A stretch of DNA of 64,000 nt from Ulva prolifera (taxonomy: Eukaryota > Chlorophyta > Ulvophyceae > Ulvales > Ulvaceae), in NCBI GenBank assembly GCA_023078555.1, contig CM041201.1, positions 1,805,713 through 1,869,712 of the forward strand. Direction: 5' to 3'. Position numbers and translations under genes: made by a program. Within the stretch, counting starts at the first letter, position 1. Each line of letters begins with the position of its first letter. Under the pieces are notes generated by a model. That model was given only the letters and a program-made list of their open reading frames with translations. It did not search any database and was not told the origin of the DNA. Positions 23,061-41,809 of this stretch are shown piece by piece.

Positions 23061-23560
23061 CCCGAGCGGTACCGGCCCCACTGTCACACCACCAGCCACA
23101 ACAGTCTAGTGGTGCTAACGCGACTTTTGGCCCCGGGCTTCCACAGCCCCCACATCCACAGCCCCATTGCCACACCACCAGCCACAGCAGCCCAGCTGCC
23201 GCAGACCTGCATCCGCAGCCCCACTGCCCCCGCATCCACTGCCCCACTGTCACACCGGCCACAACAGCCCGGCCCCGGGCTTCCACAGCCCCCGCATCCA
23301 CAGCCCCATTGCCACACCACCAGCCACAGACCACCGGCACTGGTGGGGGTCGCACGTGCCGCTCGCGGCGGCGCCTCGCCGCGGGGCTGCGCCCCGCCGC
23401 TCCCCGCCCGTCGCTCGCCGACGGCGGCCTCCCGGTGGTCCTCCCCGGACTCTGGTGGGGGTCGCGCCCGCCCCCGCGCCCGCCCCCCCGGGGCTCCGCC
23501 CCGCGCCCGCCGCCGGGAAACCTGCGGGCGGCACAGCGGCAAAAGCGCGATCCGGCCAAA
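23061..23560. repeat. CCACAGCCCC-rich and GC-palindrome repeat block
   Basis: Positions 23,036-23,465 recur inverted at 42,058-42,487 (coordinates sum to 65,523). The right end has the GGGCTCCGCCCCGCGCC palindromes and the shared AAACCTGCGGGCGGCACAG ending. No gene is supported. Confidence 0.75.
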
Positions 23561-23810
23561 CTGGAAAACAGAACTGTGTTCATTGTGTGGTGCATATGCC
23601 ACATGGGGGTGATTGGGTGCACAGGGGTGCACAAAGGAGTAGGTACACAAGGGAACAACATGCCGATACCAAAGTCGGTCAAAATAAAATTTGGTAGGGG
23701 CATACCTTCGATGGTGTGGCCTCCTCTATCTCAAAGGCTGCCGATCAGCTTAAAATTGGTGGCCTACAACAATGTGGGCCGCTCAATTCAGTGACGCTAT
23801 CACACGGGTA
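23561..23810. other. No gene seen
   Basis: Mixed-composition sequence between the GC-rich block and the 150-bp repeats. No domain-bearing frame or known repeat is recognised. Confidence 0.4.
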
Positions 23811-24500
23811 GGCACAGCTCGCTGCGGTGGCTACGATCAATCAAGCCGCAGTCACATCAACAGGTACCACTACTACAGCAAGGGCTACTAATTGTCGCCC
23901 TTCCTACGGCTATGGATTCAACTGAGTGTAAAGGCCGGCTTCACAGCTGGCTCAGGTAGCTACGGTCACGAATGTGGCGAAAAACAGATAGCTGCGTACC
24001 TTAGATACATTCGTTGTCGATGTAACAAGGGCTGGTAAGGGTCGCCCTTCGAACGGCTATGGATTCAGCTGAATCGCGAACGTTTCAGGGCACACGTCAT
24101 AGCTGGTTGAGGTAGCTACGACCACGAATATGGCGACAAAACGACAGCTCTTTACCTCAGAGAAAACTGTTCCCGATGTAATAAAGGCTGCTAATTGTCG
24201 CCCTTCGAACGGCGATGGATTTAGCCGGGTGGCGAAAGTGTGACGGCATGCTTCACAGCTGGCAGGTACGATCACGAACATGGCGACAGAACGACAGCTG
24301 CTTACCATAGAGAATGCTGCCCCCGATGTAACCAGCTGGCTGCTCATTGTTCGCACAGCTATGGATTCAACCGTGTGGAGTGTGCCGGCAGGCTTCGCAC
24401 TTGCCTACAGATTTTGCCCGCACAAGGACGTGCAGGCGCGATACAACACCACACTGCTTCTCCTTCCGGAATATCGTCCTATTAGCTCTCCTGGTTAGAC
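23811..24500 (+). repeat. Diverged ~150-bp tandem repeat
   Basis: The landmark GTCGCCCTTC...GGCTATGGATT occurs at 23,894, 24,041, 24,197 and, degenerate, 24,349, spacings of 147, 156 and 152 bp. Each unit also has an ACAGCTGG...GGTAGCTACG or related word and ACGAATGTGGCGA or a variant. The substitution load indicates an old array, in contrast with the near-identical duplications around it. Confidence 0.7.
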
Positions 24501-24534
24501 TTACATTGAATCATATGATGTAGCTGTCAAAGTA

Positions 24535-24710
24535 TAGGAACAGCTGCGAGGCGTGGCCCCAGCATCCTCGCCCACAAGCCACGCTTAAGAGGCAGCCACG
24601 CTTAAGAGGCGGGCCGTCAGCCCAGCTGTAGCAGCTCGCAGCTGGGATATGAAAGCGTGGCCTATCCAGCTGTAGCAGATCGCAGCTGGAGACAGGGCGA
24701 GGTGCGCCAT
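24535..24710. repeat. Short tandem words with internal dyads
   Basis: GCCACGCTTAAGAGGC occurs twice within 21 bp, and CAGCTGTAGCAG followed by TCGCAGCTGG occurs twice about 48 bp apart. Each CAGCTG...CAGCTGG pair can fold on itself. Function unknown. Confidence 0.5.
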
Positions 24711-24780
24711 GACACATTGCTGGTGCAGCAAGCGTCCAGTGTGGTGCGCCCGCAAGCTCGTATGGTATGCTAGATGGCCT

Positions 24781-25840
24781 GCGGGTGTACAATGTGTGCA
24801 ACTTCGCCGCAGGCCAGTAGGGCGTACGCGTGGGAGTGGACGGACAACGCCGTGGTTCGGATACGCACAAGCCCAGCATTGAAGCCACGCTGACACAGTA
24901 TAAATCAGACACAGTATAATTATAAGCCGTAATATAATATTTTAAGCCATATAAGACACAGTATAGTTAAGTTTAAAACAGGAGATCGGTTCCAGTGCAG
25001 CCGCGGACACACATGATTCCATCTGCTTCGCGCCACACCCGTCGCGCACTCAATGAAATCTGCACCTGACGTTTGATTCCCCTACTTATAATGCACGACG
25101 TGCCCTCACCAGGCCGCGCCAATACAGGTGGGCATCCCATACACATGCAACACCACTACAGGGAAGCAGCCCTGCGTTAGCAGTGCAGAGCGACTAGTGT
25201 GTAGCACAACGGCTGCGCTGACAACATGTCGTGTAATGCACCAACAAACAGATAACTCTGTGATGCTGACAACAGAAACCCTTGTGGAATGCACAGCAAC
25301 ATAGCTGCAGCGTGGACTTGGCCTGAATGACAGCCACCGGATCAGGAAACCTGCCGGTTATGCAGAGGCAAGATAGACTCACGTATGGAGCAACATGTGC
25401 TATGATAATCTTGCATAGTGTACATCGAACCTGACAGAGCAGCAAACAGACAAACGAACAAACCGTAACATGCAACCATGCGCTTTGGACACTCACTTGG
25501 ATGCGCAGCGCATGGAAGGTAGGAACATGCATGATACCTAAAACAATGCAATCACTGGATCCGGCATGCCGCATCGTGCAAGCAGAAGATGACAGAACAC
25601 CTAACGGACAACCTAACAATACGGGGCGGTGTGGAATTCGCAGAATAGCAACACCCTTCTCAAGGAGCGTTGCACATAGGGCTCAAACCAACCGTGATGA
25701 AAAACTTGTCAACGCTGTATTGGCGGCACTCAACAGACCCGCGATCGGCCAACCGAGGCCTCCGTGGCGCCGTTCCGAGCGCCGCACCTGCCACCCACCT
25801 GGTGGTGTGCTGCACAGGGGGCCAAAACCGACCTGCCCCG
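24781..25840 (+). repeat. Third, partial copy of the inverted-repeat arm
   Basis: This is a direct copy of 7,347-8,406 at a constant offset of 17,434, including the AT-rich block with three GACACAGTATA words. It lacks both the flanking GC palindromes and the acidic-protein gene. It runs directly into the 166-bp satellite array, of which the arm's own monomer is the first unit. Confidence 0.9.
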
Positions 25841-26604
25841 ATGTGAGAAATGATGCATCCACCATAACATACATGCCGGGAGCTGCAATCCGCACTCAAC
25901 AGACCCGCGATCGGCCAAACGACGCCTCCGTGGCGCCGTTCCGAGCGCCGCACCTGCCACCCACCTGGTGGTGTGCTGCACAGGGGGCCAAAACCGACCT
26001 GCCCCGATGTGAGAAATGATGCAGCCACCGTATTACACATGCCGAACGCTGCAATCAGCACTCAACAGACCCGCGATCGGCCAACCGAGGCCTCCGTGGC
26101 GCCGTTCCGAGCGCCGCACCTGCCACCCACCTGGTGGTGTGCTGCACAGGGGGCCAAAACCGACCTGCCCCGATGTGAGAAACATTGCATCCACCGTAAC
26201 ATACATGCCGGGAGCTGCAATCCGCACTCAACAGACCCGCGATCGGCCAACCGAGGCCTCCGTGGCGCCGTTCCGAGCGCCGCACCTGCCACCCACCCTG
26301 TGGTGTACTGCACAGGGGGCCAAAACCGACCTGCCCCGATGTGCGAAACGATGCATCCACCGTAACATACATGCCGGGAGCTGCAATCCGCACTCAACAG
26401 ACCCGCGATCGGCCAACCGAGGCCTCCGTGGCGCCGTTCCGAGCGCCGCACCTGCCACCCACCTGGTGGTGTGCTGCACAGGGGGCCAAAACCGACCTGC
26501 CCCGATGTGAGAAACATTGCATCCACCGTAACATACATGCCGGGAGCTGCAATCCGCACTCAACAGACCCGCGATCGGCCAACCGAGGCCTCCGTGGCAC
26601 CGTT
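25724..26604 (+). repeat. 166-bp satellite array, about 5.3 units
   Basis: The GCCTCCG word recurs at 25,758, 25,924, 26,090, 26,256, 26,422 and 26,588, exactly 166 bp each time. Units differ by a few substitutions. The period is close to the DNA length wrapped by one nucleosome. Open frames within it are periodic artefacts. Confidence 0.93.
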
Positions 26605-26921
26605 TTGAAAGCAGTGTATCACTCAGCGGCACATGACGTCACAGAAGGAGCCAGAGTGCAGCATCGACATTGGAATCTCTCAACCGCAATCATGATGATG
26701 TGTCAGTGGTTCGTGGCTTGTCCTGTGTCATACCCTTGGCATCGACATTCACATGTACCCCTTCTTGCACCTCCCGCACTCCAGGATCACGCGTGGCATA
26801 AGGTGAACATCTATCACAGTCGTTACACAGATGTTCCCAGTGCTGCACCAGTGGCAAAGCGTAGGATATACAGGCACGCTCATGTGTGCACACGTACCAA
26901 ACACGTTCAACACTGAGCATA

Positions 26922-27845
26922 CTACGGCGCCGCCTGTCGGTGCAGAAAAGCGTTCACCACGGAGGCCTCGACATCCGGCGCCCACCGGAAAAACCCATGC
27001 GCTGCCTGGCTGTTGAGCCGCGCATCAAACACCGCCGACCCGCGGTCCGGGGGCGGCTGTCCGTCATGCCCCTGCGCATACGCATGGTACAGGTTGCAGT
27101 AGCCCTGCCCCTGGCTCAGCCGCTGCACCTCCGCTGCGAGGTTCGCCACCGGCTGCCGCGGCGCGAACATGTTCTCATGAACGATCGAGTCATGCGTGAT
27201 CGCAACGTCTGCGGCGTCTGACACACGCGTGAGGCCGATGTACATCGGCGCGTTGTGTGCAACAGGGTCCAGCGTCGTGTCCGCCGCAGACTTACTGTGC
27301 ACGACCACACGCTGCCCTGCCAGCTCCACCGTCGCGCTGAGCATGGATGACGATGTGCGCACGGCCGCCGGCACGATCGGCAGCTGCACGCGCAGCGCCG
27401 CGATCTTCTTGGTCTTCAGCACGTACTCCATCTCGGGCTCCGGCATGAGCACCTGCTGGATCATCACGTCCGACGGCGACCGAATCGCAACGAACGGCAA
27501 GCCCACGAGGTCATACGACGTGTTTGCCTCGATGAACCGTTCCAGTAGCATGTTAGCGATGCTCTCGACCGAACCTGCGACTTGCTGTGGCACAGAAGCA
27601 CCCGTGCGAAGCCGCACTGGCGACCACGGGACCTTCAGTTTCGCGGCGTTCTTGCACATGAAGGCCAGGCGCGCTTTGAACTCTGCCCGCACGTGCCATG
27701 CTGGCACAAACGCCCATGCCACAGCCGAGCACGCCGCACCGTTTGGTCGGCTCTCCCCGAGGCAGGCTGTCAGCAGCAGGGGCTCACCGAGGTGGACCCT
27801 GAAGGAGTCCCAGCTGGAGAATGCGATGTCCTCCAGCTGGCCCAC
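26922..27845 (-). CDS. Pif1-like helicase, C-terminal block (motifs V and VI)
   Basis: Near residues 154-192 of this block LPIVPA is followed by VVVHSKSAADTTLDPV, which aligns with the Pif1 stretch that normally ends in a KSQGLTL-type motif V. Residues 201-216, MYIGLTRVSDAADVAI, match motif VI (YVALSRV type). The usual QG of motif V is replaced by AA, which could weaken ATP or DNA coupling. The frame closes at 26,922, about 320 bp from the end of the satellite array. Assignment rests on motif order with the two blocks upstream. Confidence 0.65.
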   Translation of the reverse strand: MGQLEDIAFSSWDSFRVHLGEPLLLTACLGESRPNGAACSAVAWAFVPAWHVRAEFKARLAFMCKNAAKLKVPWSPVRLRTGASVPQQVAGSVESIANMLLERFIEANTSYDLVGLPFVAIRSPSDVMIQQVLMPEPEMEYVLKTKKIAALRVQLPIVPAAVRTSSSMLSATVELAGQRVVVHSKSAADTTLDPVAHNAPMYIGLTRVSDAADVAITHDSIVHENMFAPRQPVANLAAEVQRLSQGQGYCNLYHAYAQGHDGQPPPDRGSAVFDARLNSQAAHGFFRWAPDVEASVVNAFLHRQAAP

Positions 27846-30800
27846 GATCCTCCGGCCGGAGTCTGTCGTCGTACTGCATGCACCCGTGTCCCATCAAGCC
27901 AGCTTCAAAGCGGCAGCGCACAGGCCTACGTAGCAGTCAGACACCCGGAGTGAATGAGTCACCGCAATAGAGGAGACGTGCACAGACGACGCAAGGCACC
28001 CCGACATGCAGATCACATGCCGCCTGCACACGCGATCACACAGGAAGCCGGGCAGGCGCGCACTCGAATGCATACGCATCCTCCGCGCGATACTCTGTGT
28101 CTCGGAAGGTGCAGGTCGTCGGCCCACCAGGGCACGAGGGGGCATCATGCGGGAGGGCCGGCAGTGTGTAGAACAACGCCTTGTAGTCAGCGCGCGTGAG
28201 CAGTATATCACGCAGCGCCTTGCAGTCCGGCTTGTACGGCGCGATGACAACGGTCGCCGGGGGCAGGCTGCGATCTTCACCCGACAGGTCGATCGGGTAG
28301 TTGGGGTTGCGATATGTCGCCTCGTCCGCCCCCACCGCTGCCCAGCCGTAGTTAACGCCTTTGATGCCGGACTTCTCTTGCGCAGCCTGCGCCGGCGTCT
28401 GCCGCAGGTCTGACCGGCACCACGTGGAAAACAAGTAGTCCGTCGCGAGGTCCACCCTCCGGAATTGCATGGTGGCAATGTCTGCCCTTGACCTGCACAT
28501 ACACTCAGCCGGTCACAGCTGACGTATGTACAGCTGTCCCGCTTATGGCCTGGACTGAGCGGCGGGTACATCCGGGCCCTGTCACAGTTGTAGGCAGCGC
28601 ACAGCACGACCAGAACAAATCACAGCACATCACATGGAGGTAGCACGACAGCAGCCAGCGCGGGGCGTACGCATTGTGGAGCAGCCGGAACCCGAGGCCA
28701 CGCAGGCGTCGCTGGCCGTGGATGGCAAAGATGTGCCAATGCATGCTTGCGCTAGGCTGGCCGAGCGCGTTGAACACCGCCGTCCACGGCATCACGACCT
28801 CTGGCTTCTCCTGCTGCACCCGCCCATTGTGGTCGATTGACTTGATGCCGTACGTCTTGCACGGACTCTGGTGGGGGTCGCACGCCAGGATGTACCGGCA
28901 GCGGCGAAGCATATGCTCCGATTCGCACTGCGCGTTGGCCTGCTGGAGGGCTCGCTGATGCTGACTCAGCAGATGCGGCAACTGCTGCACCCATGCCTGC
29001 ACCTCTTCTAGCACATGCAGCTTCCGGCCGGCGACGCGGTCGATGGCGTTGCCGACGTACCCAGCTGGCCGACCCTCCACAGCGGGCTCCCAGAAGTAGT
29101 TACACATCGCCTTTGCGCACGTCTCGGTGGGGTACCCGATGTTGTGCGTGACGCCCGACTTGTGCACCATGATTTTGGCACAGTCGTGCGTCAGCCGCGG
29201 CAGCGCGGCGGTGCTGCCTTGGGCTGCGGCTCGCAGCGGCGAGTCGACGATGGACAGGGCCATCGCGTCCAGCATCAGCCCGGTCTTGCCCGAGCCAGGC
29301 ATGCCGAGCACAATGATGCCGTTCGCATGGTCGGCTGCCGGCTTACCGGCCACGAGCAGATCCTGCATACGATCAGACGCGGTGAATGTATGGGCCGTGT
29401 TGGCTTATTCATCAGAGAGCAGCGAGGGTCTCGGCATACTGACACAAATACACACAGTTCCGCAGCGAACAAGGTGCACAAGCAGCCTCACAGAACACAG
29501 CGCCACATGCATGCACACACGTCAGCCGCCCACGACGAGTACACACCGCGCCAGTGATGGCTCTGACATTCTGACCGGGCTGCATGGGCTGGTCACCGAT
29601 CCTCAGCTTGTAGCTGAATGGATTCGACGTCGTGTCTTTGCACAACTGCAGCATCTCAGACACCTGCTGCGGTGTCCGCACAGAGATGGGCACGCGGTGG
29701 TTGACGGGAGCCCAGTGGCCCCTCCTTCTGCCACCTCCACCACCGCCGTTACCGCCGCCCCCATCGCCGCCGCTTCCGTCGCCACCGTCGCTGTCAGACC
29801 CGCCTCCGTTGCCGCCGCCTCCATTGCCGCCGTCAAAGCCTCCATGTCCGCCATTGCCGCGCCCAGTTCCTCCGCCCCCGGTCCCGCCCGCACGTCCACC
29901 CGATGGACCGGCGCCCGGATCGCCTCGGGACCCGCCACGCGGGGGGCTCCGAGCACGCTTTGGCGCTGCGGGGGCTGACCTGTGCACACGGTCGCCCAGC
30001 GATGCGGCCGGACCTGTGACCATCACGCCACCGCCGGTTCCGGATCTCAACCCGCGTCTCGTGCCCGCCCGAGTGCCCGCCTGGGTGTCCCCCTGGCCGC
30101 CCTGACTGCTGTTCCTGCGGCGCCGCTTGGAGGGTGGCTGCGCGCGATCACCTCCGTCACCGGTCAGGTCGATCGCGGCCGCGCTGGCTCCCGCACGACT
30201 CCTTGCGGCGCGCCGCATCGACCCGACACCCTGGCCCTGCGTGACGTCGCCGACCGGGCGCACGCGCGCGTCCGCGGTGAATTCGAACCGCTGCCGAGTG
30301 GCGTCCGTTTGGGCTGCCGCCTGAAGGCCTGTCAACTCGGATGGCGTCGCACGCGTCATCACGATGACCTCCGGGTCGCAGTCGTCAGACCATGGGATCT
30401 GCATGCACACGGGCGTCGGTGCCATGGTTTCGATGCACGCCCGGTACAATGACTACGGAAAACAGACACGACAAATGCACACCATCCGATAATAGGAGGG
30501 CGAACAGTGCAGTCTCATAAATTCTGTTTTGAGGCCGAGCTGGGAAGTATCTGGGTTATGGCAGACTCGCACCGGCTCGAGTTTGTCGCCGCCTCGCCGC
30601 TTGCGTCGCCCGTCCAGGATCTCCGGCCACTTCTGCTTGTCAAATTGCTCCAGCCCGATCAGGGCGGCCCGCGGGATGCACGCCAGCACGGACAGCGCAG
30701 ACGTGACATCGTCATCGCTGTTGATCCACGTCGTGCCGGCGGCGACTAGGACGAGCTGCCATGCCAGCGTCAGGCCTTCCGCAAACGCATAGTGCCAGAT

Positions 30801-33800
30801 CAGCTGCGGCACCGCGTCTCTGCTCTCGCGAACAGCGACACTGCAGTGTGCGAGGCCCCACACAAACAGCGTCAGGAGGGCTGGGAGTGTCGGCCGAGGG
30901 AGCAGCTGCAGCCGCTGCAGTAGCTGCAGGGTCGTCGCATGCACACGGACGGGGGGTTGTGCAGGCGCGGCGGGGTCGAACACCCGCGCGATGAGGAGCT
31001 CGCCCGCGTCTCGCACGAGCTGCAGATACCGCACGTCCACCGTGCCGATCCTGCGCAGCGGCTCCGTCATGCTCTGTGCGCACTTCAAGTGCACCGCGCG
31101 CATAGAGTACGTCAGACATGAAGGCGCATCCTCGCCGCGGTCTTTTGCTTGCTGACATTGCGCGTGTCCGATGCGGACCACCGTTGACCTTTGGCTCCGC
31201 GCCGCCTGAGCCACGAGCGCGTCGTCTGGGCGTGGCCGTGCTGAGGCAGCTCCCTGTGGGGCCTGCGCCTTGCTGGCCTTGGGCTTCCGAGACGTGAAGC
31301 CGACAGGCATGAACATCTCCAGCGCGAAGATTTGCAGGCTACGGTTGGTCACCCACTTCGGAGTCTCCACGACCATCCCTACCGCCGCGTCGGACACCGC
31401 GGCGGCCTTCGCCCAGTCCACCAGCTTGAAGGCGTGGAGGCTGTCCATCACTCGCATCGCTGCTGATGCTGCATGCACATGGAACACTCCGGCGGGGCAC
31501 ATGACGTACACAGTCTCCATAGGTACACCCCTGTGGACACTGCAACAGTAGGGCAAGCACGGCATTGGATACAACACAGGCCATGAAATTCAGCAACACA
31601 CTTCTAGCACAACATTGGACAATGAACACACACAGCATCTACAGAAGCTTGATCAAGTAGCCGTACCATGCTCACAGTGCCGGCTGGGCGCGCATCGGCC
31701 GCGCATGGCATTTGCGATTGGGCCTTGCTGAATGTTCTTGAGTCCCTTGGGGGCATTGCTCCGGGGTCCCTTCATACTTGCATGCATCTTTGCCCGCTTC
31801 ACCTTCTTCTTCTCCTCTGGAAGCGCTTCGTACTGCAGACGCTCCCGGTGGTTCCGCCTGGCAGCCTTGTCAGTCTTCAGGGCGTCCCTCGGCCGGATGT
31901 CGCACTCGTCGACGTCATCCGTGAGTGCGTGTTTCATCATGTCAACAGTGCCTGCACAGCAATCCTTCGGATGGCATCACAGGGAGTCGCGTCAACACAT
32001 GTACAAACAACCAGACTTGCACACCACACGTATCGGAAGCGATTGAGAGCATATTGATACGTATTAATACAATTAATAAACATTGTACAACGAAGCATGT
32101 CCGCAGAGGCACCGGTGACAGCCCGGCACGTCACCAGGTGATGGTGAACACGGTTTCACGAGGCACCAGTGCCACTGAAACACTAGCGCACGAGCGGCCA
32201 CTTCCATGTCAGCACACAGACCCTGACCCGGCAGGAAGTGCAGAGCAGGCACGGATGTGACCGATTTATGCTCAGCTGCACATGAAAAGCAGCGAATGCC
32301 GCACCCGCGCTGCGATCCAATGTGCCTGGAGTCGTCACCAACACGATCGCGTCCAGAGCAGAGCCGCAGTCCTTCAAGCTGGACAAGCAGGTGATGCAGT
32401 ACCCGTCCACGACCCGCTCAACCGGCGGCGTCTTCTTGCACAAAGGTGCATTGCGGCACCCGACACAGCCGAGAGGCACGGCCGGGGAGCCGTGTACCTC
32501 TGCTGAGGGCGCCTGCGCACGCGCGACAGCTGCTGCGCTCGTGCTGGCCCCACCGTGTCCTGTGGTTGGGTGGGCTGCGTCTTGTCGCGACTGACGGACG
32601 GTGATGCCTGCGACGAGCGCCAACCCAGCATCCCTGCAATCTGACCCGCTCCCGTCACCGTAGTCGTACCCCGCCAGCACCTCGTCGTCCTCAGCCGACT
32701 CTGCAGCAGCCTCGGTGGAGCCGATGACTTGCGGCTCCGAGTCTAAATCCGAAGACGCATCGGACTCGCTGCCGACGTCCTCCCCTTCAGCAGACAGCAC
32801 GACGCTGTCGTCGCATGAGGGTGCATCTTCGTCCAGCAGCCGGCGTGCCTCTGCAGCGTGTCGCTGCAGCCTCGTGTGCACCTCATAGCAGCGGGCACAC
32901 GCGTAACTGCCACGCACGAGGCCCACGCCCTCGATACTGCACACCTTTTGGCAGAATCGGTTTGGGCAGTACCACGTGATGGACACCACCGACGGGCCCT
33001 GGCCACCGTCAACCCTGAGCACCACATCATGGCAATGTGTCCGGCACATGCGGCTGGCATGGCTCCCCGTGATCTTCGACGTGCACCGACCTGTGTGTGG
33101 GCTGACGTGGTGGCATCGACTCGGTTCTCCCGTCTGCATGTCGCACGTGGCCAGCCCCAGCACACGAGCTAGACCCCGGGGCGGCTCATCTGCGAGAGCC
33201 GGCGTCTCACAAAGGCGCTCGAGGACCCGCCTCAGGTGTTTGTCGCCTGCGACCGCCGCCTTGGCGCCGTCGCTGCCGAATGCTTGGCAGCGTGGCCCGC
33301 ATCTGCCATCCTCTTCAAGCCGCTCGATCTCCACCCACATCTGGCACGATCGACAGTGGTACACAACCGCCGCGTCTTGGCCGTCCTTGCTTTGGAGGTA
33401 CAACACAGCATCTCTGTGCGTGTCGCACACCTTAGACTTGCTCGTCACAATTGTGCCGCTGCAGCCCACGACGTGGCACTCGCCCGGGCGAGCCCACGAG
33501 CCCCCCGCCTGCCTCATGGCCTTTGACATTGGCTCATACCACAACAGCCACTCAAGGGCGCCTGGATGGTCCGGCACTCGCTGATGCAAGGTCAGGGGCT
33601 GAACCGCTTGCGCGCCTTGCTTCCGCAGCCGCGCGCCCTCCCGCTTTGCCGCTCTCTTCGCCGCGCAATCGTCACACGCTTTCCTCACATACGTGCCATC
33701 TGCCCTTGTCACCCACGCATCTTCGATCTTCCATGCCGGACAGTCAGTGCAATATTTCTTCGCGCATGTCACGTGCGCGTCCGTGTGATGCACGACGCAT

Positions 33801-36800
33801 CCTCTGTGCTCCGCACACGTGCGGGAACCGTGCGGGTGGCCCTTCGCTGTCATCACACTGTTAGGGCACGGCACATACCGGCCCCCGTCAGCTGCCTGCC
33901 ACACGTACACCGCGCACCGAGCCCCGGTCAACGGCCCTGGCCAGAGCGCGCCCGCTGGCATCCTGCCCGTGATCATCACCAGCGCGCCGGAAGGGGGGCG
34001 TGGCAGTGCCGGAAGCACGCGCGCGTCCTGCGGCTGCTGCGGGGAATCCAGCTCCAGACACACACAGCACTGCCGCTTCCAGTTGCGCTGCGCATCTGGG
34101 AAGAGGCCCTGCTCCTTCAGGTTATAACAGCGACTGCAAGTCACCGCTGCGACGCCTTTCGCGTCGATCACCCGTGGAACCTGCAGCACACGCCACGTCA
34201 GCCGGCTCACGACTACATGACGAGAACCTGAAACTAAGAACCACATACGGCTATAACTTTAGCGTCAGTGCATAAAATCCGCTGAAGAACCTCAGGCCAT
34301 CGTCAAGAGCACGCACATAACACGCCAGCCGTGCACGCGTAGCACACCTTGACGTGCTTCCGGCACAACCCTGTGACAGTCTTCCGGCGATCGGGTTCCT
34401 TCTCGCACACGCTCACATCGCAGCGCTCGAGGTCGCGGCGGTGGGTGTTTGGAGACCCGGCGACAAGTGTGTCAAGCCGGAGGTCGGTAGCTGCCACCCC
34501 GTGGAACTCCTCTCCGGCCGACGGCAGCACCGCTTTCCGGCCGAGTAGCGTCGCGCCTGTTTGATGCGCGTCACACACCGTCGCGAACCCTGTGAAGTTC
34601 GCGATGTCCATCAGCCGCCTGTGCTGCGTGTTGCTGCAGTACCGCACAAACCGTGCGGTGCCGGTGCCCTGGAAGTCCTCGATCAGCAACAGCGGCTTCC
34701 TCAAGTGGGGCAGGCACAGGTGAAACCGCTGGCTGGCCCCTCCCGTAGTGTCTGCGAGGCACAGCTCGTCAACGCCCACAGCTCCAGCTGCTACCTTCTT
34801 CGGGTCGACCGCCAGGCACTTCCCTTGGAGCCGCTTTAACGGGTCGGCCACGTCAAGAGACTTATAGCTCCGCACTACCACCGGCGTCGGTGCCTTATCT
34901 GCAACAGCGGCGAGTATCGTCCTCTTCGATTGGCATGCCAGTACGCATGATGCCAACACCGAGTTGTGACAGTGTGCCAATTCCACCTCTCGCAACCATG
35001 GACCATACACCGCGGTGCTGATGCTCATTGACATGCATAACAAGCACGTCCAGCATACCTTCAATTAGTCAAGGTCCATGGTGCCACCACGTTGCAAATA
35101 CACACCAAGGAGTCAGGATCGCACCAAGGCGTAGGTATTGCAGCATGTGCTCAAGGCCACGGCCGCCCTCTCGGATGTGTCGCAGGATGCCGTCGAAGAC
35201 ATCTCCACCGGCGGAGCACACCCAGTCGACCATGCGCAGCGTCGGCGGTCTCTGCACTGCAACGCTGAACCTCTGCAGTGCCGCCTTACGATGCATCAGG
35301 ATGGCGTTGAGTCCTTCCGTAGTCACCTGCATACTGGCACCGCGCCAATGGTGCTGGTTGCTGTGGGGCAACAGGGTGGGCCCTGATGGATGGCAATGTT
35401 GCTGCCCACGTGCACAAGCACATACACCACCCACCCCCCGCATTGGGAGCATAGTCCCGGCACGCACACATGTGGTGCAGCGGGCGTGCAGACAAAGAGA
35501 AACAGATGCACGCACCTCCACTTCAATGTCTCCGACGCGCAACTTGGCCAGGCGCTTCCGCCGCATGGCATCGGCATTGTACACACACTTCCGCTTCCGC
35601 ATGCGCTCCACCAAGAAGTCCCCTGCCGGCCCAAAGAGCTGCGCGCACGAGAGCTCTTGACCGAAGCGACAGAGGTCAACTTCTTCCGCGATGTCTTCGA
35701 CAGTGTTGCCCTCCACCTGGGCGTCAGGGTCGAGGAGGTGCTCGTACACATCTGCGGCGATGGTTTCTCCCACCGTCCGCATGGCCTCCAGCGACGTCGA
35801 AACCTTGCAGCCACTGGCAGTGCTCAACATGTCACGCAGGGCCACACCATGCTCTTCACCGGCGCTCTCAAGTTGGCCCAGCCATGCTGTTTGGACCTCG
35901 TCGGCAGTCCCCAACATCATGCAGAATCTCTTAAGCTCCCCTGCACAGAATGCACACACATGAGCGTACTGTGTGGGACCGGTGGCACATACCTGACATT
36001 ACCGTGGGACCCATACATACTATAGTCTCGCACACACAGCGGCATGCGATGCAGTATGTAAGTGCAAGCCGGCCACAGCACCGATGCATACATGGCTGCT
36101 GCATCAAAGGTGCTCCACTGCCCGAGCTCTCTATCGATCCCCCTGTAGACACCTAGGCTGTCGGGCCGCCGTCGGGCCGCAGACCGGTACCACATTGATT
36201 ACCGTCGACTCGGCATGCATGTGCACGATCCTTGCTGCTCGGTTGGTTTGAGCGCCCATGCATGGCACACCCCGTCCCTGTGGACGCATGCAGTGCCCGG
36301 TATCACACCGGTCGGGCTGCACTGTTGGCCCCGCACTGCCCACACCCATGCGCTGCAGGAAGTTTGCAGTCTGCAGTCGGTGGTAGCACCACCTACATGC
36401 ATGGTCGGCACATGGAATCAGGCGACGCCGGGACCAACACATGAGATGCACACCAGGGCTGTCCTCAGCAGGCCTGTTTTCCTCTTTCCCCCACAGGTGA
36501 AGCTGCCCTGGACCGTCGGGGTGCAGCTTGCGGATGAGCGTCCAGCCGTATGCAGCGAATGCGCCATGCGACTGGTCCTGGATAGCCCGAACGCTGGCGT
36601 TGAGAACGGCCTTGCCGTGCTCATCCGCCGCTCGCAGTTGTCGCCTCCCCTCCGCACTTTGCAGGAACAGGTTGCCCACGGCTGCGTGCAAGTACAACGC
36701 CAGGGCGTACGGGTTCTCGTCTCGTTCCACGCACAAGGCCTTGAAAGCAGCAGCCTTGACGAGGTTCTTCATTGCAGATGGCACACCATGATCCGTCAAA

Positions 36801-37290
36801 GGCTGCACAGTATGCACGATCACCTTTCGCATCATGGCACACATACTTGCTAGCCATGCCCGTGGGTCCCCAACAGGGCGTATGGTTCTACATGTGAGAC
36901 GCGCACTACCAGCCTGGCGGGCAAGCACATACAACAGAACCAGCTTTGGCAGAAGCAATGGATGCCATCACGACGGACAAAAGCACGTGCGCCGCTGTGT
37001 GCTGGCTACAATTCAGGGCGCACCAGATCTCCGAACAGCGAATTCAGGAATGCGGGGTGGCAGTACTCCGTTTGGTACGTGCTACAATTCAGGGACCACT
37101 GCCCATTGTTTGCCAATGAGGTCCGATTCTCATGGCCGTTGTAGTGCAACTGGGCCTGCGCCATGCGCCCGAACACCGAGCCGGAACGCATCTCCTTTTG
37201 CAGGGCTTTCTTGTCAGCGGCTGCGGTGAACCGCGCCAACAGAGCCGACATGGCGTATGGCGCCATGGGTATGAATCGCAACGGCACCAT
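26922..37290 (-). CDS. Large spliced gene: zinc clusters plus Pif1-like helicase
   Basis: About eleven coding blocks follow one another on the minus strand from 37,290 to 26,922, separated by gaps of roughly 40-240 bp that carry plausible GT...AG borders, for example a GAGCCG|GTGCGA donor near 30,520 with a TTCCGTAG acceptor near 30,447, and a GTATGTGCAG acceptor near 28,492. I infer a single gene of some 2,500 or more codons, though two or three genes cannot be excluded. N-terminal blocks are unfamiliar, the middle is Cys/His-rich, and the last three blocks hold SF1/Pif1 helicase motifs. The whole span is unique in this window and lies between the 4,869-bp inverted repeats. Large proteins ending in a Pif1 helicase are typical of Helitron-like elements, but I find no HUH nickase motif. 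Confidence 0.6.
28036..28491 (-). CDS. Helicase gene, block between motif IV and motif V
   Basis: A clean acceptor (GTATGTGCAG) precedes this roughly 150-codon block on the minus strand. It holds FRRVDLATDYLFSTWCRSDL and VVIAPYKPDCKALRDILL. In Pif1-type helicases the equivalent region carries the 2A-2B linker; I see no diagnostic motif and assign it by position only. Confidence 0.5.
   Translation of the reverse strand, partial: SRADIATMQFRRVDLATDYLFSTWCRSDLRQTPAQAAQEKSGIKGVNYGWAAVGADEATYRNPNYPIDLSGEDRSLPPATVVIAPYKPDCKALRDILLTRADYKALFYTLPALPHDAPSCPGGPTTCTFRDTEYRAEDAYAFECAPARLPV
28630..29368 (-). CDS. Pif1-like helicase, ATPase core (motifs I-IV)
   Basis: Counting from 29,368, residues 22-29 are GMPGSGKT (Walker A), residues 117-122 are LHVLEE (Walker B with the acidic pair), residues 162-169 are ACDPHQSP (motif III, the GDxxQ-like sensor) and residues 216-221 are IHGQRR (motif IV arginine finger region). 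Order and spacing fit SF1B Pif1/RecD-type helicases and not AAA+ or Helicase-C folds. Coding continues to about 28,630 (RWLLSCYL), after which an intron with several stops leads to the next block. Confidence 0.7.
29412..30445 (-). CDS. Helicase gene, glycine-rich block before the ATPase
   Basis: The block opens with TMAPTPVCMQIPWSDDCDPE, passes through a basic stretch (KRRRRNSS) and a long glycine/arginine/aspartate-rich linker encoded by GGN-rich DNA at about 29,730-29,930, and then PISVRTPQQVSEMLQLCKD and RIGDQPMQPGQNVRAIT. The last part probably corresponds to the Q-motif region just before Walker A. Low complexity makes homology uncertain. Confidence 0.5.
30522..31530 (-). CDS. Helicase gene, unknown block
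   Basis: About 330 codons of normal composition, with METVYVMCPAGVFHVHAAS at the start and DKQKWPEILDGRRKRRGGDK near the end, where a GAGCCG|GTGCGA donor follows. I recognise no domain. The leucine-rich LQLLQRLQLLPRPTLPALL stretch may be helical. Confidence 0.45.
31653..31940 (-). CDS. Helicase gene, short basic block
   Basis: About 95 codons, highly charged (AARRNHRERLQYEALPEEKK, then VKRAKMHASMKGPR). The composition suggests a nuclear-localisation or nucleic-acid-binding segment. The acceptor and donor are not resolved, and it could instead be a small separate gene. Confidence 0.4.
   Translation of the reverse strand: MMKHALTDDVDECDIRPRDALKTDKAARRNHRERLQYEALPEEKKKVKRAKMHASMKGPRSNAPKGLKNIQQGPIANAMRGRCAPSRHCEHGTAT
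32183..34246 (-). CDS. Cys/His zinc-cluster block
   Basis: Counting from 34,246, cysteines pair at 37/40, 60/63, 166/169, 191/194 and 298/301, and there are repeated modules of the form C-x(n)-C-x(n)-C-x2-H, for example C111/C127/C144/H147 and C257/C262/C274/H277 (ECHVVGCSGT, KVCDTH), with another near 390-420. Such arrays bind zinc and usually DNA or protein; similar C..C..CxxH repeats occur in plant and oomycete WRKY-19-like proteins and beside KDZ transposases, but I cannot place this one. An acidic linker (SESDASSDLDSE) and a final cysteine cluster follow. Confidence 0.55.
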   Translation of the reverse strand: MWFLVSGSRHVVVSRLTWRVLQVPRVIDAKGVAAVTCSRCYNLKEQGLFPDAQRNWKRQCCVCLELDSPQQPQDARVLPALPRPPSGALVMITGRMPAGALWPGPLTGARCAVYVWQAADGGRYVPCPNSVMTAKGHPHGSRTCAEHRGCVVHHTDAHVTCAKKYCTDCPAWKIEDAWVTRADGTYVRKACDDCAAKRAAKREGARLRKQGAQAVQPLTLHQRVPDHPGALEWLLWYEPMSKAMRQAGGSWARPGECHVVGCSGTIVTSKSKVCDTHRDAVLYLQSKDGQDAAVVYHCRSCQMWVEIERLEEDGRCGPRCQAFGSDGAKAAVAGDKHLRRVLERLCETPALADEPPRGLARVLGLATCDMQTGEPSRCHHVSPHTGRCTSKITGSHASRMCRTHCHDVVLRVDGGQGPSVVSITWYCPNRFCQKVCSIEGVGLVRGSYACARCYEVHTRLQRHAAEARRLLDEDAPSCDDSVVLSAEGEDVGSESDASSDLDSEPQVIGSTEAAAESAEDDEVLAGYDYGDGSGSDCRDAGLALVAGITVRQSRQDAAHPTTGHGGASTSAAAVARAQAPSAEVHGSPAVPLGCVGCRNAPLCKKTPPVERVVDGYCITCLSSLKDCGSALDAIVLVTTPGTLDRSAGAAFAAFHVQLSINRSHPCLLCTSCRVRVCVLTWKWPLVR
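34303..35020 (-). CDS. Unknown block ending in a C..C..CxxH cluster
   Basis: Contains DPLKRLQGKCLAVDPKKVAA, LCLPHLRKPLLLIEDFQGTG and FTGFATVCDAHQTGATLLG, and ends with the zinc-type module RCDVSVCEKEP...GLCRKH. Normal composition and the shared cysteine module tie it to the next block. No catalytic signature is recognised. Confidence 0.5.
35069..35950 (-). CDS. Unknown alpha-helical block(s)
   Basis: Two coding-like stretches, about 35,930-35,515 (QTAWLGQLESAGEEHGVALR ... LARLRVGDIEVEV-like end) and 35,335-35,090 (TTEGLNAILMHRKAALQRFS, CSAGGDVFDGILRHIREGG), flank an apparent intron near 35,340-35,510. They are rich in charged amphipathic helices and of unknown function. Confidence 0.45.
   Translation of the reverse strand, partial: FCAGELKRFCMMLGTADEVQTAWLGQLESAGEEHGVALRDMLSTASGCKVSTSLEAMRTVGETIAADVYEHLLDPDAQVEGNTVEDIAEEVDLCRFGQELSCAQLFGPAGDFLVERMRKRKCVYNADAMRRKRLAKLRVGDIEVEVRASVSLCLHARCTTCVRAGTMLPMRGVGGVCACARGQQHCHPSGPTLLPHSNQHHWRGASMQVTTEGLNAILMHRKAALQRFSVAVQRPPTLRMVDWVCSAGGDVFDGILRHIREGGRGLEHMLQYLRLGAILTPWCVFATWWHHGP
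36470..36900 (-). CDS. Unknown N-terminal block
   Basis: Coding-like sequence with DPRAWLASMCAMMRKVIVHT, PSAMKNLVKAAAFKALCVER, PYALALYLHAAVGNLFLQS and FAAYGWTLIRKLHPDGPG. Composition is normal. No family recognised. The adjoining 35,960-36,460 stretch looks intronic. Confidence 0.45.
37006..37290 (-). CDS. Probable first coding block of the large gene
   Basis: Starts with ATG codons at 37,290 (MVPLRFIPMAPYAMSALLAR) and reads through FGRMAQAQLHYNGHENRTSL and YCHPAFLNSLFGDLVRPEL to a stop at 37,006. An internal exon border probably removes that stop. It lies only some 160 bp from the edge of inverted-repeat arm B, back to back with the acidic-protein gene there. Confidence 0.45.
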   Translation of the reverse strand: MVPLRFIPMAPYAMSALLARFTAAADKKALQKEMRSGSVFGRMAQAQLHYNGHENRTSLANNGQWSLNCSTYQTEYCHPAFLNSLFGDLVRPEL

Positions 37291-37465
37291 CCCATGGAAC
37301 CGGCAGAAGCAGAACCTGCATGTAGCTCATAGGGTCCGTTGCCACCTGTGCGTGCGAGGTGACATGTGAGTTCACGGCATGGGTCGCCCTCCCCGCACAC
37401 AAGCAATCACACACTGCAGCAGCGCAAGTGACAGCAGGTGAGCATGTGGTGATGCTGCTGCGGAG

Positions 37466-39547
37466 ATGCACCGTGCAAGAAGACCCCCTGGATGGTCCAC
37501 AGCAGGGGCCTCGGACGCTGCAGGCGGTGTGAGCGCAGTCCATGTGGACTTGCCTGCCCCAGCCCTTGCCGTTGGGCCCAGGCAGAAGGCAGGCGGTGAC
37601 CGCGGCAGCCCGTCCAGTGATGACGGCGAAGCGAAGGGCTCTGTGGACGCTGCCGACAGGTACAGGTTCAGGGGACACGGGGACAGCGGCAGCCCGTTCG
37701 GTGATGACGGTGACGGGGAGGGCGCTGTGGATGCTGGCGTCGGGCCGCAGCCTCTGGCGCCGAGGCTGAGGGGAGGCGGGGACAGCGGCAGCCTGTTCGG
37801 TGATGACGGTGACGGGGAGGGCGCTGTGGATGCTGGCGTCGGGCCGCAGCCTCTGGCGCCGAGGCTGAGGGGAGGCGGGGACAGCGGCAGCCTGTTCAGT
37901 GATGACGGGGACGAAGAGGGCGCTGTGGCTGCGGGCATCGGGCTGAGGCTCAGAGGAGGCGGGGGCAGCATCGATCTGTGCGTGTCTGATGAAGATGGCG
38001 ATGAGATGGGCACCGGCGCCGGCCAGTCGAGCTTTGGCCTTGCGGTGACGGACCAGGTAAATGCTGCACCGGACCCTGTAGCGGCGGCTGTGGTTTCGTC
38101 CATCACATCGGTGCGACCGGAGTTCCGCATCCGGAAGTCACAGCAGCAGCGTTTGATGATGATGGGTCTGAACAAGCAGCCAACGTGCAAACGGCCCCGT
38201 GATGAACCGCTGAGCGCGCCCGGGCAGCCAACCCTCGGCCGTGCAGCCACTGCAGCTGCAGCCACTGCCACCGCAGGCACTGTAGCTGGAGGTCCACCAC
38301 ATGTGGCTGCTGCCTCTTCGCTGCGATCGCCGGATATGTCGTGGATCAGGATCTCGACAGGCAGCGGTGGGGCTGGCGTGGGTGGCGGAGCGGTGCGCGC
38401 CGGTGATACGGCGCAACCCCGACACGGCCGCAGCGCTGTGTCCTTGTCAAGGTTTGTCCTTGCCGACTTTGATGATGCTGAACTCGCGTCGAGCGCCCTG
38501 AAGGGGGTCGCATCTGTGCCAGGGCAGGCGTCCGTGCCTTGTGGGGCTGCGCATGCGCGGCCTGGTGTTGACATTGTATCTGGTCGTGCGGCAGAGCGCG
38601 ATCGGGATGGAGGGCGCAGATGTGTTGCCGCCCATGGCCGGGGCTTGGGCGCGGCCCGTCGCCGTCGTCGCCCTGTCATCAACCTCGGCCCACTGCCACC
38701 TGTGGCGACTGCACGTGGCCATGGCAGTCCTACTCGCTCGCGAGAGGGCAACGTCGCAACTGAACCTCCTCTTTGCACTGGCATGGCCGAATCTGGCGTT
38801 GCGGTGAATGCTCCCGAGGTTGCAGCAGCGCAACCAGCAGCGGACGCATCGACCGCGATGGTGCTGCCCGCGCTGCCGGCCCAGAGATCGCAGCAGCACA
38901 GCATGGGTTGCGGCGGGAACCCGGCAGGCGAGCCGCCGCATCAAGAGGCTGTCACTGCAGCGGGAGGCGCTGCGCCAAATGCAAGTGCGGCAGATGCTGC
39001 TGTCATAGACAGCTCGACCCCTGTACTGCTTGAGAGCGCGATCAGTGCAGACGCACGCGGCTGTGGTGTTACATGCGGTGCGCGGGTGGGTGGCGGTGTG
39101 GCGGCACGTCCCCCGCAGCCACCGCATGCCATTGCAACGGCTGGCCGCAGTGGTGCCACACGTAACCGTGACTCTGGTGGCCTAGAGGGCGACATTGACC
39201 AACCCGACTTCAGCGATGACTCGGATGACGACGACGACTCTTACATACCTTCTGAGTCTGGGTCAGCGCCCTTGAGCCTCGGAGGGGGGGACATGTCATC
39301 CGGCGACGTCGACAGAGCAGCCCCCAACAGCGCCCCAGAGGGACAAGTTTCACCCGATTGTGGCCACAGCGACGGTGATGTCGTGACTGTGCGAGAGACA
39401 GGTGAAGGTGACGAAGTTGCAGAGCTGTATCGTCTCGGAGATCTGCTTGACAGCCCGGAGATGTATGCGAGGTGTGCAACTGCTGCTGTCCATTGCGCAA
39501 CCATCAATGTCAGGTTCGCGTTGCTCTGCTTGATTCTCTTGGCTTAG
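37466..39547 (+). CDS. Unknown acidic, low-complexity protein (arm B copy, 5'-truncated)
   Basis: The 693-codon frame is identical to the C-terminal part of the arm A protein: it has the 33-residue GDSGSLFGDDGDGEG repeats, the RKSQQQRLMMM segment and the DDSDDDDD tail. It begins at the arm boundary, so the N-terminal 200 or so residues seen in arm A are missing. A CAG|GTGAGC donor-like site at 37,436 lies just upstream, so a different first exon is conceivable. Whether this copy is expressed is unknown. Function not recognised. Confidence 0.5.
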   Translation: MHRARRPPGWSTAGASDAAGGVSAVHVDLPAPALAVGPRQKAGGDRGSPSSDDGEAKGSVDAADRYRFRGHGDSGSPFGDDGDGEGAVDAGVGPQPLAPRLRGGGDSGSLFGDDGDGEGAVDAGVGPQPLAPRLRGGGDSGSLFSDDGDEEGAVAAGIGLRLRGGGGSIDLCVSDEDGDEMGTGAGQSSFGLAVTDQVNAAPDPVAAAVVSSITSVRPEFRIRKSQQQRLMMMGLNKQPTCKRPRDEPLSAPGQPTLGRAATAAAATATAGTVAGGPPHVAAASSLRSPDMSWIRISTGSGGAGVGGGAVRAGDTAQPRHGRSAVSLSRFVLADFDDAELASSALKGVASVPGQASVPCGAAHARPGVDIVSGRAAERDRDGGRRCVAAHGRGLGAARRRRRPVINLGPLPPVATARGHGSPTRSREGNVATEPPLCTGMAESGVAVNAPEVAAAQPAADASTAMVLPALPAQRSQQHSMGCGGNPAGEPPHQEAVTAAGGAAPNASAADAAVIDSSTPVLLESAISADARGCGVTCGARVGGGVAARPPQPPHAIATAGRSGATRNRDSGGLEGDIDQPDFSDDSDDDDDSYIPSESGSAPLSLGGGDMSSGDVDRAAPNSAPEGQVSPDCGHSDGDVVTVRETGEGDEVAELYRLGDLLDSPEMYARCATAAVHCATINVRFALLCLILLA

Positions 39548-40176
39548 TTCAGGCTCGCTCTGGTATATTTCACACCCAGAACTCCGTCGTCGCCCAGCAT
39601 TATGAGCCTCTTCTGACATGCAGGATAAAGTGCAGCAGCATGGACGCAGCGGCTGTGGCACACGCCGACGTCGTCATGCCTCGGCGCGAGATGCAGGTTC
39701 TTGGCCTAGCTGCAGGGTGGGATGACCACTCCAAGGTGTTGTTCACTGACACCGATGCAGAGTGGTTCAAGTGCATTCCCTGCAAGGTCTTGGACAACCA
39801 GGAGGCAACTGCTAGGGTCGTGCTCGTATTCGCGCGAGCATACCTTGCAGCCTTGATTTCAGGACAAGACGATCCTGTATTTGATACTGAGGGTGATGTC
39901 ACCCGTGTCACCCCCGCAGCCCTGTTGCAAGACATTCAGGGGTGTGCGAATGTTGAGGGGCAGGTCCCCATGGGCAGCATCATTGCCTCCTTTTGGAAGT
40001 GCCCTGGGCGGATCTTCTGCCAAACTCTGACCCTTCTCACATGGGCCGGGCACATCGGGAGCTTCAACACGCTTGCACGGTACAAGTACACCCTCGCCAC
40101 GGTGGTGGACGCGTACTGGGAAAACAAGGAAATGATCTTTCGCAGCAACCCGGCTGATTTTAAGGTGTGGTCCTGA
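39506..40176 (+). CDS. Unknown gene, C-terminal exon (arm B copy)
   Basis: Identical to the 8,970-9,640 block on the other strand and ends at the stop at 40,174-40,176. Same normal-composition sequence (SFWKCPGRIFCQTLTLLTWA). Its conservation with no indel in both arms shows that the duplication is young; it does not itself show selection. Confidence 0.55.
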
Positions 40177-41600
40177 TGCCCATCGGTGCTCAGATTTGCA
40201 TTCTTTCGCGTTTCTTTCGAAAAAATACGTTGAGTACAGCATTTTCTATTCTCACGTAGGAAAGCAACGTATGATACGTTGGGACGTGGGGACTTGACGT
40301 TTTTAGGTTCCCTCTAGGCAAATCCGCACCGCACTGCACCCGTAGCGATGCGTATGGCTAGGATTCCATGCATACCGGAAACCTGTTGTACCGGTTGCCA
40401 CAAAGCGTAGCGAGGCCAGTAACACCATGCCTTGTGAACAACAATTCAACACATGCCACCATAGGCATTTTACCTACACAACGTTTTTTATTTTGCACCG
40501 AAGTTGACACATATGTTTCGTATGCGTGTTCAATATGAACGTTTTTCACTTTGTTGCGTAGGGATGCAACCCTGTCGGTGCTATAGTTGGGGAGCATGCG
40601 CAGAGTGGGGAGCATGCGTAGAGTCACACATTCTAGTTTCCGCGGCATTCGCGGCTGTCACCTTCATCCGTGCTAGTCCTTTGCACAGGAAATTCATGAT
40701 AAATCGCAATGCAGGCCCGCGTAGCAGCGTCCCATCTTCGGGGGCAGGTCGGTTTTGGCCCCCTGTGCAGCACACCACCAGGTGGGTGGCAGGTGCGGCG
40801 CTCGGAACGGCGCCACGGAGGCCTCGGTTGGCCGATCGCGGGTCTGTTGAGTGCCGCCAATACAGCGTTGACAAGTTTTTCATCACGGTTGGTTTGAGCC
40901 CTATGTGCAACGCTCCTTGAGAAGGGTGTTGCTATTCTGCGAATTCCACACCGCCCCGTATTGTTAGGTTGTCCGTTAGGTGTTCTGTCATCTTCTGCTT
41001 GCACGATGCGGCATGCCGGATCCAGTGATTGCATTGTTTTAGGTATCATGCATGTTCCTACCTTCCATGCGCTGCGCATCCAAGTGAGTGTCCAAAGCGC
41101 ATGGTTGCATGTTACGGTTTGTTCGTTTGTCTGTTTGCTGCTCTGTCAGGTTCGATGTACACTATGCAAGATTATCATAGCACATGTTGCTCCATACGTG
41201 AGTCTATCTTGCCTCTGCATAACCGGCAGGTTTCCTGATCCGGTGGCTGTCATTCAGGCCAAGTCCACGCTGCAGCTATGTTGCTGTGCATTCCACAAGG
41301 GTTTCTGTTGTCAGCATCACAGAGTTATCTGTTTGTTGGTGCATTACACGACATGTTGTCAGCGCAGCCGTTGTGCTACACACTAGTCGCTCTGCACTGC
41401 TAACGCAGGGCTGCTTCCCTGTAGTGGTGTTGCATGTGTATGGGATGCCCACCTGTATTGGCGCGGCCTGGTGAGGGCACGTCGTGCATTATAAGTAGGG
41501 GAATCAAACGTCAGGTGCAGATTTCATTGAGTGCGCGACGGGTGTGGCGCGAAGCAGATGGAATCATGTGTGTCCGCGGCTGCACTGGAACCGATCTCCT

Positions 41601-41692: not shown

Positions 41693-41809
41693 TGGCTTCA
41701 ATGCTGGGCTTGTGCGTATCCGAACCACGGCGTTGTCCGTCCACTCCCACGCGTACGCCCTACTGGCCTGCGGCGAAGTTGCACACATTGTACACCCGCG
41801 GCCGGATCG

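Follow-up and report, generated by a model that had tools for sequence, protein, structure and literature searches.

A candidate family of giant, apparently mobile DNA elements with SBP-type modules and a helicase-like end in Ulva prolifera

The chances are about even that the window, a stretch of 64,000 nucleotides from Ulva prolifera, carries a member of a giant, apparently mobile DNA-element family that combines SBP modules, a helicase-like end and a recombinase-like region (A2-E2). In the likeliest reading the family represents a new superfamily among giant mobile elements of eukaryotes and not a Helitron, and its sequence places it in none of the mobile-element classes tested; we infer mobility because of the pattern of its copies. 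Read from its 5' end, the gene has an acidic first exon; then come the conserved region A2-E5 and five modules of SBP type, and after them a linker and a C-terminus that is helicase-like.

The first-pass annotation had described one large spliced gene, which is borne out by collinear copies, uniform splice sites and purifying selection. Inspection of open reading frames showed open minus-strand blocks spanning 37326 to 26922, collinear with a copy on contig C2 at 50-76% identity, and for every block the best E-value against the C2 copy comes from a minus-strand frame. Splice sites were set by this comparison, the doubtful ones being picked with the emerging consensus and the phase, giving 12 exons (E2-E13) of one minus-strand gene at 37315-26922 in a single reading frame:

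37024 to 37315, minus strand: E2, with conserved FCRxHxMVPLR and G-Q-W-S-x-N-x-[SN]-T-[YF]-x3-Y-x-H-P, putative tyrosine-recombinase-like boxes II/III
36454 to 36802, minus strand: E3, from the window/C2 comparison
35516 to 35940, minus strand: E4, from the window/C2 comparison and dN/dS
35125 to 35326, minus strand: E5, from the window/C2 comparison
34348 to 34898, minus strand: E6, SBP-type zinc module 1 and the first half of module 2
32305 to 34180, minus strand: E7, the remainder of zinc module 2, modules 3-5, then an acidic stretch
31667 to 31951, minus strand: E8, from the window/C2 comparison
30573 to 31468, minus strand: E9, a domain conserved as far as the C5 lineage, with no Pfam match
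29547 to 30398, minus strand: E10, a linker rich in Gly/Ser/Arg
28671 to 29362, minus strand: E11, helicase-like motifs I GMPGSGKT, II LHVLEE, III DPHQSPC and IV HGQRR
28064 to 28492, minus strand: E12, from the window/C2 comparison and dN/dS
26922 to 27873, minus strand: E13, GEPLLLT, a degenerate motif V, motif VI YIGLTRV and the stop codon

The 11 introns between E2 and E13 measure 167-513 nt each, with GTRYG donors in 11 of 11 and TGCAG acceptors in 12 of 12, including the acceptor preceding E2. Between the window and the C2 copy, dN was 0.14-0.38 and dS 0.82-1.71 in all seven exon segments measured (E4 being saturated). Close copies held no stop in any of 17 comparisons, and dN was below dS in all 16 that showed differences; another close copy outside this set (C6:7763495) has two stops within its E7 match. 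The gene is under purifying selection, and two diverged lineages within this genome share its exon order.

The gene does not start at 37290, as had been supposed; its first exons are present, inverted and incomplete, in what appeared to be a separate plus-strand gene. The segment 37454-42330 is a perfect (100%) inverted copy of 11692-6816, and collinear copies have other exons in its place, so the gene is cut off upstream. The window copy is rearranged and 5'-incomplete, its beginning having been lost through rearrangement. The pieces concerned are as follows:

37454 to 42330, plus strand: inverted segment, the reverse complement of 6816-11692, occupying the upstream-exon place of collinear copies
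37454 to 39471, plus strand: first exon of the same gene, inverted and 5'-truncated, acidic, with 33-aa repeats
39624 to 40164, plus strand: exon A2 of the same gene, inverted, followed by a donor-like GTGTGG
8982 to 12010, minus strand: Copy I, the first exon (ATG at 12010) and A2 in normal orientation

In Copy I, the 3' arm of the element follows at most 0.6 kb after A2, the remainder of the gene being deleted. The A2 donor position reads GTGCGT/GTGTGC in C2 and in a collinear copy, L069, and A2 is 58% identical to its counterpart on C2 and 31% to that on C5. Comparison with L069 identifies the adjoining plus-strand coding of the window as the 5' part of the gene, and a model joining A1-A4 from L069 to E2-E13 from the window predicts a protein of 3786 aa with at least 15 introns in its gene. 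A reading as two divergent genes was rejected, since in the C2 and C5 copies the plus-strand gene lies upstream of, and co-directional with, the helicase gene, and since the joining exons are present in L069. A tentative 5-nt first exon at 37380-37376 (giving 2601 aa) was dropped because A4 splices to E2 in the collinear copies.

Downstream of the gene, three features were delimited:

23558 to 24780, minus strand: 3' region, with 98% conservation in two C6 copies from the 7.6-Mb cluster
24781 to 25839, no strand assigned: arm of 1059 bp, repeated perfectly in inverted form at 40741-41799 and in direct orientation at 7347-8405
25726 to 26689, no strand assigned: 166-bp tandem repeats of the 3' region (a 300-nt reference matched five times, at intervals of 166 nt)

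An abrupt junction with GC-rich repeats lies at 23557, and 23557/23558 is a candidate end of the element at most. A 700-bp piece of the arm occurs at five places in the genome. Terminal inverted repeats of 1 kb were rejected as bounds of the element, because the inverted duplicate includes the right arm and the arm occurs in only these five places; a 22-kb C2 stretch (24 bases left out) contained no inverted repeats, and the copies do not in general carry long ones at their termini. Position L068:3726 was discarded as a 3' end because a dispersed repeat starts there. Insertion at a tRNA-Lys gene was discarded too: the repeats stop 5 bp short of it, but neither the window nor the loci contain a further match of more than 14 bp to the tRNA region. 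The copies showed neither an empty site nor a circle junction nor a target duplication.

The repeated zinc clusters noticed at first reading are real: strict modules number 3, 2 and 2 in three lineages, far above shuffle means of 0.003, 0.000 and 0.008 (1000 shuffles each). These clusters, which could not then be placed, are assigned by profile comparison to five tandem SBP-type modules. A joint profile built from 11 of 15 modules of three lineages returned 10 PDB sequences at E up to 10, of which the top six are SBP proteins, the best an SBP-like protein at E 1.2e-6 and five at E 1.4e-4 or below. The Pfam SBP family matches three of the 11 modules (best E 2.9e-6), and over the genome PF03110 gives 34 matches, with two C1-cluster places above the curated cut-off and six C5-cluster places at about 24 bits. 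None of the 34 falls in the window's cluster, the C6 7.6-Mb cluster or the C2 cluster, so it is homology to C5, together with the joint profile, that links this lineage to SBP; four window modules scanned one by one likewise had no SBP match. The modules share with the SBP-box (SQUAMOSA promoter-binding) domain the arrangement C...C...C-x2-H...C-x2-C, and their joint profile significantly matches SBP structures, whereas here five stand in tandem within a giant multidomain protein and CxxC supplies the last zinc ligands in most of them. One of the 11 modules weakly matched CxC6 (E 0.012), a cysteine cluster found alongside KDZ transposases.

At the other end of the protein, the helicase motif order first reported was recovered, GMPGSGKT, LHVLEE, ACDPHQSP, IHGQRR and YIGLTRV all being present in the window gene. 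In a five-lineage alignment judged by eye, motifs I, II, III, IV and VI can be read in an order and spacing resembling those of Pif1/RecD-type SF1 helicases, from which the element differs in an EE motif II (three of five lineages) and a degenerate motif V. The label "Pif1-like" stands as far as motif order goes and finds no backing in a Pif1 profile match: only P-loop families match, weakly (AAA_25 down to E 0.00068, in three of the five lineages, and AAA_19 at E 0.003, in two), the PDB matches of this end include no helicase, and the six genomic PF05970 matches all lie outside the element clusters. Loci on C1 and C10 have an SBP match and a PIF1 match separated by 5109 bp. A structure model of the E11 reading frame had a pLDDT of 35.5, too low to be of use. 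The C-terminus appears helicase-like in its motifs and very divergent, a helicase identity recognised by no family profile.

The candidate transposition enzyme lies upstream of the zinc modules, in A2-E2, where an R-K-(K/R)xxR-W-Y series weakly resembles tyrosine recombinases. R248, K289, R419, W449 and Y460 (alignment A2 numbering) are identical in the three sequences aligned, and the box II His of the R-H-R-Y tetrad is replaced by Lys/Arg. No recombinase was recognised when A2-E2 was compared with Pfam, PHROGs and PDB sequences, and PF00589 had no match in the genome in an exon-by-exon search, which could miss a split gene. Box I scoring put the proposed site at rank 2 of 574, 1 of 455 and 6 of 550, with higher-scoring windows elsewhere in the protein; an hhalign comparison with phage recombinases carries no weight either way, its control between phage families having failed too, and a structure model of P0004 had a pLDDT of 32.8, too low to be of use. 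If A2-E2 is a tyrosine-recombinase-like enzyme, it might excise the element as a circle and insert it, often beside existing copies, while the SBP modules would bind the element's own DNA, perhaps at the 166-bp repeats, and the Pif1-like helicase would unwind that DNA in replication or strand exchange. Cryptons, which are tyrosine-recombinase transposons (PMC3212892), are comparable in the possible R-K-R-W-Y site and in the C2 stretch lacking terminal inverted repeats, and differ in that the protein here has about 3786 aa, SBP modules, a helicase-like end, a replaced box II His and no profile match; a text search of that paper for "helicase" gave no occurrence.

It is possible, though doubtful, that the recombinase likeness is due to chance and that another enzyme, such as a divergent DDE or KDZ-type transposase, moves the giant element. 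The want of a recombinase profile match and the CxC6 match speak for this. Against it, neither a KDZ nor a DDE transposase was matched in the scanned blocks (most weak matches are lost to HMMER filters), and the C2 stretch free of inverted repeats and the five identical residues also tell against it. With KDZ transposons that have CxC clusters the element shares cysteine clusters in a large protein, and it differs from them in that no KDZ transposase domain was found.

The copies bear on mobility itself. Genome-wide matches number 47 for the helicase, 73 for E7 and 59 for E2, and copies cluster on five large contigs (C1, C2, C4, C5 and C6) at one or two sites each, frequently sharing a strand. 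E2 matches are all on the plus strand in the C2 cluster (five of five) and the C6 7.6-Mb cluster (six of six), and are mixed in the C1 cluster (six plus, three minus). Many copies, several lineages and purifying selection are as expected of a mobile-element protein, in agreement with the role first proposed. That the gene is instead a non-mobile one, a fast-evolving host gene or centromere-like repeat spread, window pieces included, by unequal crossing-over and segmental duplication, is unlikely: clusters restricted to certain places, the near-constant spacing of three C5 copies (23408 and 23412 bp) and the window's own segmental inverted duplication would suit it, but at least four diverged lineages (27-76% identical) occupy separate clusters, isolated helicase-like matches lie far from clusters on C1, C3, C4 and C6, and stretches in two C6 clusters 5.8 Mb apart are 92-99% identical. 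Two points against the preferred reading, that of a mobile family, are that unequal crossing-over can also give one-strand spacing and that the C1 copies lie on both strands.

That the element is a rolling-circle one of Helitron-like type, with an HUH nuclease too diverged to be recognised, is quite improbable. Its helicase-like C-terminus, zinc clusters, head-to-tail copies and lack of general terminal inverted repeats would fit, as would the HxH that A3 shows, as GHVHF, in both the C6 and the C2 lineage; at the same place C5 reads QIE, and no HxH (HUH) site is common to the C6, C2 and C5 lineages in the compared blocks, the C5 string being incomplete (2380 aa). The earlier report of no HUH nickase agrees with the three-lineage comparison, while the Helitron likeness it drew fails on this defining feature. 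Helitron RepHel (PMC6431247) is likewise a very large protein with a C-terminal helicase, from which the element differs in having SBP modules and no common HUH motif. Least probable of all is an integrated virus or polinton-like element with one gene recognised, which large size and an algal-type host would suit, but the helicase exon has no relative in 2.9 million viral contigs (a search that sees close relatives only) and the gene is spliced, with its many introns in the model.

Among 5.8 billion proteins, three queries gave 3, 1 and 3 matches, amounting to five distinct metagenome ORFs (7999 and 7996 candidates were scored in two of the three queries), and the titles and abstract beginnings listed in literature searches contained no account of such an element or of a transposon origin for SBP. 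More tentatively, the family may be a new superfamily that unites a diverged tyrosine recombinase, tandem SBP modules and a Pif1-like helicase in about 3.8 thousand residues, forms arrays at a few chosen sites and has common ancestry with plant SBP-box factors, whose domain may have been recruited from such elements. The occurrence of SBP domains in tandem within a giant protein that appears to be mobile makes transposon origin, or transposon capture, directly testable, and SBP modules with a helicase-like end and no recognisable HUH nuclease would stand outside all element classes tested. The arrays on the five contigs could reflect centromere-like or target-site biology in algae.

The minus-strand blocks of 26922-37326, which are open in an ORF reading of the window, belong to one gene. 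Compared by tBLASTn with a related copy on contig C2, the window's ORF blocks are collinear at 50-76% identity and the minus-strand frame fits best, and with splice sites set by comparison of these two copies, downstream exons E2 to E13 join in a single frame, its 12 exons separated by 11 introns (167-513 nt). Synonymous change greatly exceeds amino-acid change between window and C2 in 7 of 7 exon segments, and when close copies are compared with the window, all 17 comparisons are free of stops. The single spliced gene proposed in the first-pass annotation is confirmed.

Upstream, the window's copy of the gene is disrupted. There, 37454-42330 repeats 11692-6816 perfectly in inverted orientation, with its coding on the window's plus strand, and in the C2 and C5 copies this coding lies upstream of the helicase-like gene on the same strand. 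L069, which lies within the C6 7.6-Mb cluster, shows a 98% match to the window as far as 37453, where the sequences diverge, and supplies the upstream exons.

Upstream exons in L069, and a second gene copy
L069 1926-4357, first exon
L069 4473-5001, exon A2
L069 5183-5482, exon A3
L069 5675-5973, exon A4
L069 6180-6471, exon E2
12010-8982, second, deleted gene copy: A2, then the 3' arm (a 1059-bp piece of the 3' region) within 0.6 kb

From the first exon through E2, 1284 codons are open and in phase; L069 upstream exons joined to E2-E13 as in the window give 3786 aa, a composite model rather than one copy read through its whole length. Neither A3 nor A4 was found in the window.

Across the genome (88.9 Mb in 44 contigs scanned), the helicase block has 47 matches and E7 at least 73, with scores for 64 of its 78 candidates. 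E2 has 59, divided between C1-C6 (33) and contigs C13-C43 (26). Six clusters hold 32 of the 33, the lone match being at C4 6.86 Mb.

Clusters of E2 matches
C1 3.54-3.78 Mb, 9 matches, 6 plus and 3 minus
C2 1.86-2.06 Mb, 5 matches, all plus
C4 1.06-1.10 Mb, 2 matches
C5 3.31-3.47 Mb, 8 matches, 6 minus and 2 plus
C6 7.61-7.76 Mb (7.6-Mb cluster), 6 matches, all plus
C6 1.80-1.84 Mb (1.8-Mb cluster), 2 matches, both minus, the window's included

Helicase-query matches outside clusters lie at C1 12.1 Mb, C3 2.71 and 4.41 Mb, C4 6.86 Mb and C6 5.87 Mb. Parts of the window share 92-99% identity with copies in the C6 7.6-Mb cluster. Unequal crossing-over could be an alternative source of the regular copy spacing. 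Protein databases, searched three times, gave 3, 1 and 3 matches, amounting to at least five distinct unnamed ORFs without Pfam domains: two share about 60% identity with the helicase exon and three are 99-100% identical to element exons. A search of viral contigs that reaches close relatives only gave none for the helicase exon.

Exons E6 and E7 carry five zinc modules of the form C...C...C-x2-H...C-x2-C...C-x2-C, whose SBP likeness was first seen by eye and tested afterwards. Among six modules scanned singly against Pfam SBP, four from the window gave no match and one from C5 reached E 0.028, below the cut-off; a longer C5 piece reached E 0.0026. Pfam SBP matches 3 of 11 modules (taken from 15 in three lineages; best E 2.9e-6), and the six top PDB matches of the 11-module profile are all SBP structures (best E 1.2e-6). 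The SBP profile PF03110 has 34 genome matches at E up to 10, with strong ones in host-like genes on C9 and C4; within clusters there are eight on C1 (two over the cut-off), six on C5 and one on C4, and none in the window's, C6 7.6-Mb and C2 clusters in this whole-genome scan. It matches in 3 of 14 control genomes, never over the cut-off. The abstracts of two papers (PMC4606839, PMC3601960) term SBP-box genes plant-specific, so that a host from the green lineage is probable. Equal-score SBP matches in 663-aa open frames occur at scattered sites (C6:5825967, C6:5857574, C9:1052214), the second having a helicase-like match 9.3 kb downstream.

The helicase-like end (E11-E13) shares motifs I (GxPGxGK), II (H-x-L-[DE]-E-V-Q-A), III (DPxQSxC), IV (H-x-Q-x-R) and GE..LL among five lineages, and VI (LTRV) wherever sequence extends that far, with V degenerate in their alignment. 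Library and PDB profiles gave it no decisive match, its predicted structure is a poor model, and the PIF1 profile PF05970 occurs at six genome places, none in clusters. Because PF05970 follows a weak SBP match exactly 5109 bp downstream at two loci (C1:2761008/2766117 and C10:1197152/1202261), a sister family of the same domain order is suggested. The layout had been said to recall Helitrons while lacking HUH; the blocks compared between lineages C6, C2 and C5 have no HxH site in common, and judged by this HUH test, the element protein is not a Helitron.

For the A2-E2 region, aligned as A2-A4-E2 in lineages C6, C2 and C5, tyrosine-recombinase identity is offered as a hypothesis. AGPRNPVFVALRWGHVHF resembles box I, the likeness being to eukaryotic recombinases; WDKxPN may hold the recombinase lysine, [KR]x[ML]R[ST]G may correspond to box II, and GQWSxNxxT[YF]xxxYxHP may contain the tryptophan and nucleophile. 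The profile libraries scanned gave no support, and PF00589, the tyrosine-recombinase profile, was not found in the genome, while matching 14 of 14 control genomes. Profile-profile comparison with recombinases gives no verdict either way, since its own control failed, and a recombinase scoring test was only suggestive. Most likely, the SBP modules would bind element DNA, the A2-E2 region would perform strand exchange and the helicase-like end would unwind DNA. Domain order, conservation and copy pattern are observed directly, and each mechanistic step is what we infer. Support for the proposed replicative element protein of a new type is partial.

The element's upstream spacer is present twice. 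An LTR retrotransposon at 14256-20652, Ty3/gypsy-like by eye, is inserted in one spacer copy, with identical 368-bp LTRs (14256-14623, 20285-20652) and minus-strand ORFs of 494 and 1371 aa; the other spacer copy has the empty site near 4306-4312. Blocks of GC-rich repeats that contain GGGGCGGAGCCCCG-like palindromes (41806-42330, 45603-46452, 22989-23557, 6824-7346) flank element pieces and end beside a minus-strand tRNA-Lys gene (46457-46529), whose 3' end lies 5 bp from the repeat cluster's right edge (46452). Some integrating elements use tRNA ends; a duplicated tRNA end was not found in the window. Beyond, 47952-58715 is ordinary-looking coding sequence by eye, presumably comprising part of a short-chain dehydrogenase (near 47952), a fragment of a reverse transcriptase (near 48576-49604), a minus-strand region resembling tyrosyl-tRNA synthetase (near 54915-56311) and a START-like ORF (near 57810-58715).
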